The notes below the pieces were generated by a model. The model saw nothing but the letters and a program-made list of their open reading frames with translations, was not told where the DNA came from and searched no databases. A stretch of 64,000 nt of DNA from Acidobacteriota bacterium. Its GTDB lineage: Bacteria; Acidobacteriota; Blastocatellia; UBA7656. Of this stretch, positions 10,971 through 12,512 are shown one piece after another (positions within the stretch are counted from its first letter, which is position 1; each line of letters opens with the position of its first letter). The translations under genes were made by a program, and so were the position numbers. Where the stretch lies: NCBI GenBank assembly GCA_038040445.1, contig JBBPIG010000021.1, positions 1 to 64,000 of the forward strand, in the 5' to 3' direction.

Positions 10971-12512
10971 ATGACAAACCCAAAACCGATAAAAGTGCTG
11001 AAGCTCGCTGCGATTCTATTTGTAGCCGGATTTGCTTTCTTCGTGCAGCCGCGGAAGTCCTCTGGCGCAACGCCGATCCAATCCGCGCGCTTGTTCGAGA
11101 TCGCCGGAATTGACATGCCGCTCGAGAAACGCGTTGGCGTCGACGACGGAGCGGCGTTCGTCGTGCACTTCGCCGGCGACACGCGGGGGAGTCTCGACTC
11201 CTGCGGCTGAAAACCGCCCCGTTTCGGGGGACTGACACGGCGTGTCAGCTACTTAAAATTGTTTCGCGAGCGACTGGGCCAGATACCTTCGCTGCTGGTC
11301 GACACCGGAAACTTCATGTCGGACGAGCGAAGCGCGCACGGCAGTCTTCGCCCGGACGCGGTAGCAAAAAACGACTGGGTGTTGAAGGCTTATAGCCAAT
11401 TCCCGGTCGATGTAGCAAATGTCTCCTCACACGATCTACGTTACTTCTCGACCGTGCTCGCAGAACCGGAGCTCACCCGTCGCCTGGAATCTGAGCCACT
11501 ACTCGACCGGCTCGTATCTGCCAACATCGTGAGCGAGTCCCCTGGTTTTGTGGCGCCACATCCCTTCATCGTCCGCGAGTTGCCTTCCAGACAGCCGGGC
11601 TCGAAGCCGATACGGGTGGCTTTCATCGGGCTTACCGAAACCTCACCATCGCCGCCCGCAGGTCTCAAGTTTATTGACCCTGCGGAGGCAGCCAGGCGCA
11701 CAATCCCCGAAGCTCGAAAGCGGGCGAATCTGGTCGTGTTACTCGCGAAGGCTAGCTCGGAAGAGGCCGCGCGGATCGCCCGGGAGGCGCCGGGCATTGA
11801 CGTCATAATTGCGGGCAACGGGTTGTCGCTCGAGCAGAATTTCACGCCTCCCTTCTACGTCGCCCAGACGCTGATAGTCTTCACGCCGTTCGAAACGAGA
11901 CTGCTCGGTGAGCTTCGCTTCTATCAAACCGCTCCGGGCAAGTTTTCTACCAGGCAGCGCTTTATCGCGTTGGATGAGACATCGATTCCCGAGCACCCTG
12001 CGGCGAAGCAATTGGTCGACGCGGCGAACAGCGCCGAAACTGCGGCGCGCAACAACTCAAAGAAGCTTTTGGAGAATTGGCTGGCAAGCGGCAACGCACG
12101 TGTCACCAGCAAATCGCCAAACCCAGATTCCTCGAGAGGCGAGTCATCACCCGGCGTCCCAAGCACCTCTTGCAACCAGTGTCACCTCGCCCAGTTCATG
12201 AAATGGGTCAACAGCGCTCACGCACATGCGAGCAATTCGCTTCAAACGCGGGGGAACGAGTTCGAACCAAGCTGTCTCGACTGCCATGGAACCGGGTTCA
12301 AAGCGGCGAGTGCCGCCAACAAAGTCGAGCTGGCGAGATTTCAGAATGTGCAATGCGAACAATGTCACGGCCCGGGCAGCAATCACGTTGCGAAGCCTGG
12401 AAAGGGGTACGGCCGCGTTGCCGATATGAAGACAGCGTGCGGAACTTGTCACACTTCTGAGACCAGCCCGGGATTTGATCTTCATGCCGCGTGGGCAAAG
12501 ATCAAACACTAA
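10971..12512 (+). CDS. UshA-like secreted tetraheme cytochrome c with in-frame TGA (candidate selenoprotein)
   Basis: The frame 10971-11210 (signal peptide, then HFAGDTRGSLDSCG) meets a TGA at 11208 and continues without another stop, in the same frame, as KPPRFGGLTRRVSYLKL into the 11259-12512 segment. In 5'-nucleotidase (UshA)-like proteins I expect SCGC followed by a GGLARR-type segment here, so the TGA falls on the second Cys; read as Sec it is residue 80 of 513, giving a C-G-U pair. The C-terminus has four CXXCH heme motifs (Cys 401/404, 435/438, 462/465, 490/493). The metallophosphatase-like domain lacks the usual metal-binding Asp-x-His at its start. A perfect hairpin 21 bases after the TGA fits a bacterial SECIS. 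Alternatives: a TGC-to-TGA nonsense mutation, or a base error. Starts at 10905 or 10971 are possible; 10971 places the signal peptide first. Confidence 0.7.
11217..11248 (+). promoter_or_regulatory. Candidate bacterial SECIS hairpins after the in-frame TGA
   Basis: Two perfect stems follow the TGA at 11208-11210. The first is CCCCG/CGGGG (11217-11221 and 11225-11229) with loop TTT. The second is CTGACAC/GTGTCAG (11232-11238 and 11242-11248) with loop GGC, 28 bases past the TGA. A stable stem with G in a short apical loop at about this spacing is what bacterial SelB-binding elements look like. The stems lie inside conserved coding sequence, so base pairing is compatible with the protein. Whether SelB binds is unknown. 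Confidence 0.5.

Follow-up and report, generated by a model that had tools for sequence, protein, structure and literature searches.

The window analysed here, a stretch of 64,000 nucleotides from an Acidobacteriota bacterium of the class Blastocatellia, contains a forward-strand frame at 10971-12512 that is open except for a single TGA at 11208-11210. The question is whether this TGA ends a protein, marks damage to a gene or encodes an amino acid. A first-pass annotation of the DNA had described the frame as intact apart from this codon, which our reading of the frame bears out, and had proposed that selenocysteine (Sec) replaces a conserved cysteine there, in a family for which it was aware of no Sec members. 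The replacement is strongly supported by the comparisons reported below; the novelty of a Sec version was wrong. Judging from the sequences compared, we are confident, with little room for doubt, that the UGA is decoded as Sec. The features of the gene are collected in Table 1.

Table 1. Features of the UshA-like gene in the window, with the basis of each assignment
Feature	Position	Strand	Basis and remarks
UshA-like selenoprotein gene (predicted)	10971..12512	+	513 aa with Sec80; stop TAA 12510-12512; orthologues in same genus and family
N-terminal hydrophobic segment, residues 1-33	10971..11069	+	predicted Sec-type signal peptide or signal anchor; MTNPKPIKVLKLAAILFVAGFAFFVQPRKSSGA, by eye
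UshA/5'-nucleotidase-fold domain, residues about 60-335	11148..11975	+	AlphaFold2 model, structure alignment, motif comparison
Cys78-Gly79-Sec80 (TGC GGC TGA), predicted	11202..11210	+	Sec codon 11208-11210; 26 TGA and 43 TGC/TGT in 69 homologous sites
Small GC-rich hairpin, UGA-to-SECIS interval	11217..11229	+	minimum-energy folds of 54-nt stretch; in many, not all, TGA genes
SECIS-like hairpin CTGACAC-GGC-GTGTCAG	11232..11248	+	22-38 nt after UGA; apical loop GGC 11239-11241; comparative evidence
Heme c motif 1, CNQCH	12171..12185	+	sequence; invariant in homologue alignment
Heme c motif 2, CLDCH	12273..12287	+	sequence; invariant in homologue alignment
Heme c motif 3, CEQCH	12354..12368	+	sequence; invariant in homologue alignment
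Heme c motif 4, CGTCH	12438..12452	+	sequence; invariant in homologue alignment

The interrupted frame and its homologues

The TGA of the window gene stands in the context LDSCG-TGA-KPPRFGGLTRRVSYLKL (in a longer read, LDSCG-TGA-KPPRFGGLTRRV) and is separated from the terminal TAA by 433 sense codons, slightly fewer than the 435 counted in the first-pass annotation. That annotation had seen no other damage in this part of the gene and had argued against old decay, in agreement with our comparison with the direct orthologue from a genome of the same genus (G001), which is 71% identical and has kept the TGA: pN/pS is 0.27 downstream of the codon and 0.37 upstream, which is not the pattern of a dead tail. 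The codons 3' of the TGA are under purifying selection. When other TGA-interrupted frames were looked for in the window, ordinary-looking overlaps alone turned up, and a search for a terminator or useful promoter found none.

The homologue set comprised 58 genomes of the Blastocatellia class, including the window's own, and yielded 69 aligned homologous sites, the window site among them. The codon at the Sec site is TGA in 26 of these and TGC or TGT in the other 43, so the conserved cysteine that had been assumed at this position is present in the alignment, and both versions occur within the class. TAA, TAG or any other codon was found at none of the 69 sites. In these aligned sequences, the alternation of TGA and Cys codons is far beyond chance. 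Outside the class, other phyla likewise show either TGA or a Cys codon at the Sec site; TGA appears in records from Deltaproteobacteria, Myxococcales and other proteobacteria. A maximum-likelihood tree gives nine changes between Sec and Cys, at least eight of which are forced by well-supported branches.

The window genome contains three UshA-like copies: the window gene, a paralogue at C1:223195-224583 (minus strand) with TGA at the same codon (LETCG-TGA), and a paralogue at C39:12847-13812 that has TGC (LDVCD-TGC) and lacks hemes. A TAG in the C39 paralogue was considered as a recoded codon and rejected, being the ordinary stop of the short heme-less version. Since TGA occupies the same position in G001, in four of the five other direct orthologues and in the C1 paralogue, the codon of the window gene is not an assembly error.

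These results bear on the reading that the TGA arose in a Cys gene by nonsense mutation or through a sequencing error, which would make the gene a recent pseudogene. Cys versions do exist, including a close orthologue in G003 with TGT, as this reading requires, but TGA recurs in the same-genus orthologue and at 24 further sites in the class besides the window's, with no TAA or TAG. The purifying selection downstream and the covarying hairpin after the UGA (see below) also speak against a pseudogene, which we regard as extremely improbable; on the alignment, conservation of the TGA across independent genomes already refutes it. It could also be supposed that the UGA is a true stop, with a 79-aa peptide upstream and a separate product starting at TTG 11259. 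A TTG-initiated ORF is indeed found downstream of the TGA (11259-12512), but its start falls inside the phosphoesterase-like fold, so that the heme part would lack an export signal, and the Cys homologues run straight through this point. We give a true stop practically no credence.

The downstream hairpin and the Sec machinery

Decoding of the UGA as Sec would call on a SECIS element, and the candidate is the hairpin that begins 22 nt after the codon. In a fixed register, all seven of its pairs are formed in 24 of the 26 TGA genes, and the hairpin is complete in four of the 43 Cys genes. Compared with 1000 synonymous-codon resamplings, the TGA genes hold 172 pairs against 122.8 +/- 5.2 expected (maximum, 140) and the Cys genes 186 against 174.6 +/- 4.9, counts that come from related genes and hence do not represent independent events. 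Every cell pairs in an alignment of 23 TGA genes, three of the seven pairs change on both sides, and none of 500 shuffles reached as high a covariation score. We conclude from these comparisons that a SECIS-like hairpin downstream of the UGA is conserved beyond codon constraint and covaries; its binding by SelB is putative.

The case for the hairpin is made across genes because the free fold of the window's own sequence differs: the minimum-energy fold of the 58 nt from 11205 prefers a different, longer pairing. The folding energy of the window sequence is weakly unusual relative to synonymous recoding (z -1.05), and single-sequence folding energy was rejected as SECIS evidence, being too weak for the window alone. 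The TGA genes that depart from the common hairpin (L041:1597 and L047:464, belonging to a GGVARRQG subgroup) have another one, GGCGTGGCACGTCGCC, in another register, possibly a second SECIS form in the UshA-like family. In genome G033, two sister paralogues (L054 and L071) differ at the Sec site, one having TGA and the other TGT. The Cys copy retains a complete hairpin, as expected after a recent change from Sec to Cys.

The genome of the window (contig C21; 6.75 Mb, 100% complete) encodes a canonical tRNA-Sec with anticodon UCA and G73 (70.6 bits), the only UCA tRNA found in it. It also has selA (575.8 bits; cut-off, 267.9), selB (359 bits; cut-off, 242) and selD (352 bits, over the curated cut-off), so that selA, selB, selC and selD, four of four, lie above curated cut-offs and the Sec machinery is all present. 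Nearly all genomes of the class carry selA and tRNA-Sec, which makes a correlation between TGA and Sec machinery uninformative within the class. The selD gene (C21:108415-109344, minus strand; L063) has an in-frame TGA of its own (MVSCAG-TGA-AAKLAP), at what we take to be the place where SelD proteins carry Cys or Sec. SelD of this genome is predicted to be a selenoprotein itself.

The tRNA complement is also where a different decoding would have to be sought, namely that a suppressor tRNA reads the UGA as Cys or another residue, as might be done by UCA tRNA-Sec-like Cys tRNAs of the kind described by Mukai and co-workers. The genome does contain a second tRNA-Sec-like gene (C5:159193-159283, minus strand; L002:1501-1591), with U73, similar to the selC*-tRNA-Cys type from Mukai et al. 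2017 (PMC7609411). Its anticodon, however, is GCA and not UCA, so it would read normal Cys codons, and we rejected it as a UGA suppressor on this ground. The sole UCA tRNA being the canonical tRNA-Sec with G73, and the SECIS-like hairpin together with selA, selB and selD pointing to Sec, suppression is very improbable in our estimation. The GCA gene is conserved in G000, G001, G003 and G005 (also L130:2965-3055, L132:3082-3171 and L133:3086-3178), and G000 has two ordinary tRNA-Cys genes besides it. selC*-tRNA-Cys has been listed for Firmicutes, Thermodesulfobacteria, Nitrospirae and Proteobacteria, and not for Acidobacteria (PMC7609411).

A phosphoesterase-like domain followed by heme motifs

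The product had been described in the first-pass annotation as a secreted UshA-like tetraheme cytochrome, and each element of this description is supported: the N-terminus is hydrophobic, the first domain matches the fold of UshA, and four intact CXXCH motifs (CNQCH, CLDCH, CEQCH and CGTCH) lie downstream of the TGA. In an AlphaFold2 model of the window protein, residues 6-24 form a helix and residues 60-335 are modelled confidently (mostly pLDDT > 90); the heme domain is modelled poorly (residues 378-466, mostly pLDDT < 50). Structure alignment of the model by VIA-align gave fold matches to CD73 (Z 28.6, rmsd 2.6 over 278 residues) and to SoxB and UshA (Z 27.5 each). The heme domain resembles cytochrome c554, scoring 39.8 bits against the Cytochrome_C554 profile (cut-off, 20.8). 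All four CXXCH motifs are invariant in 26 aligned homologues, and CG[U/C] and GG are likewise invariant in the homologue alignment.

Directly before the CGU motif comes the strand on which relatives carry their first metal motif. In solved relatives the metal ligands are held by the motifs GD, GNHE, SH and GGHxH, which we placed by what is generally known of such proteins and by visual inspection of the alignments. The window protein and most homologues have other residues at these places: GD has become GN or GY, GNHE has become NVSSHD or similar, and GGHxH is absent. The window protein is probably a pseudo-phosphoesterase, with export predicted from its N-terminus. We think it rather likely that this pseudo-phosphoesterase has turned into a selenol-heme redox protein, and we lean to a similar degree towards redox catalysis over nucleotidase activity. 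Another view of the function, compatible with Sec decoding, would give the domain 5'-nucleotidase or phosphoesterase activity. The fold matches (Z 28 to CD73, UshA and SoxB) would suit an active enzyme of this kind, but the replacement of the metal-ligand motifs and the invariance of CG[U/C] argue against it, and we consider it very unlikely.

The mechanism that we favour would run as follows. SelB and Sec-tRNA-Sec (UCA), guided by the hairpin, would insert Sec at codon 80, and the resulting Cys-Gly-Sec would constitute a redox pair, carried on a 5'-nucleotidase-like domain devoid of metal-binding motifs. The product would be exported and then loaded with four c-type hemes. Most likely, it would be a redox protein of the periplasm or the surface, carrying electrons between its hemes and whatever substrate reacts at the selenol/thiol pair.

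Relation to known selenoprotein families

The first-pass annotation was not aware that any Sec version had been described for this family, a statement refuted by the literature and by a curated model. UshA-like proteins (COG0737, CxU) were already on a 2008 list of known selenoprotein families (PMC2398784), and the UshA-like CxU selenoprotein also features in two reviews (PMC9312934, PMC13188914). The NCBI curated model NF041198 (UshA_like_PCGU) has a profile that includes the cytochrome part. The window protein matches NF041198 with an E-value of 7e-62 and 209.6 bits, below the curated cut-off of 275 bits, two stretches of the protein covering positions 22-266 and 350-517 of 519. Its direct orthologues also stay below the cut-off (192-219 bits), and so do several further Blastocatellia proteins that share the motif (219-267 bits); on account of the latter, we regard the cut-off as strict for Blastocatellia. 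The C1 paralogue scores 281.7 bits with an extended start and 275 in a whole-genome search that scored frame pieces.

The window protein shares with NF041198 the order of a phosphoesterase-like domain followed by a heme domain, and the CxU/CxC motif. It differs in that its branch has K, not P, after the Sec, and the window protein itself has Arg where the first metal motif, D-x-H-G, has His. By these comparisons the window gene is a divergent relative of the NF041198 equivalog; it adds a new member to the known kind in its broader sense, and we do not file it as the equivalog. NF049981 (UshA-like family 2) has a related N-terminal fold (E 7e-8), but its motif is CxxU and not CxU, the window protein reaches 32 of 140 bits, and the model, at 262 positions, is presumably too short for a heme domain. 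The 5'-nucleotidases UshA and CD73 and the thiosulfohydrolase SoxB share the first-domain fold (Z 27-29); they keep the metal ligands and have neither CGU nor hemes, whereas the window protein is the opposite on each count. ExtKL (NF040886) and MccSep (PDB 9wt8) are multiheme c-type proteins with Sec and show weak similarity in the heme domain. Their match is confined to the heme stretch, and the Sec of MccSep is residue 325 of 450, hence not the CGU of a phosphoesterase-like domain. PDB 6i5b was rejected as a relative, having matched in the heme repeats only and not over the Sec domain.

The Sec reading is right with high confidence, and its novelty is modest. As a tentative proposal, which we hold to be somewhat doubtful, the window protein may belong to a separate branch of UshA-like selenol-heme redox proteins, found so far in one family-level group of Blastocatellia, lying below the NF041198 cut-off and acting on a substrate of its own. 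If so, one genome would house this branch alongside another Sec paralogue and a Cys paralogue that lacks hemes, and a single organism would allow the redox module to be compared in its Sec and Cys forms. The repeated swaps between Sec and Cys (at least eight), with the hairpin in Sec genes and its general absence from Cys genes, make the family well suited as a natural series in which to ask what decides whether Sec persists or is given up. The loss of the metal motifs together with the strict conservation of CGU and the four hemes provides a testable hypothesis and the main clues to the function of the family. The TGA-interrupted gene would probably be split into two broken pieces by annotation; when read through, it encodes a complete, predicted secreted selenium-heme protein.
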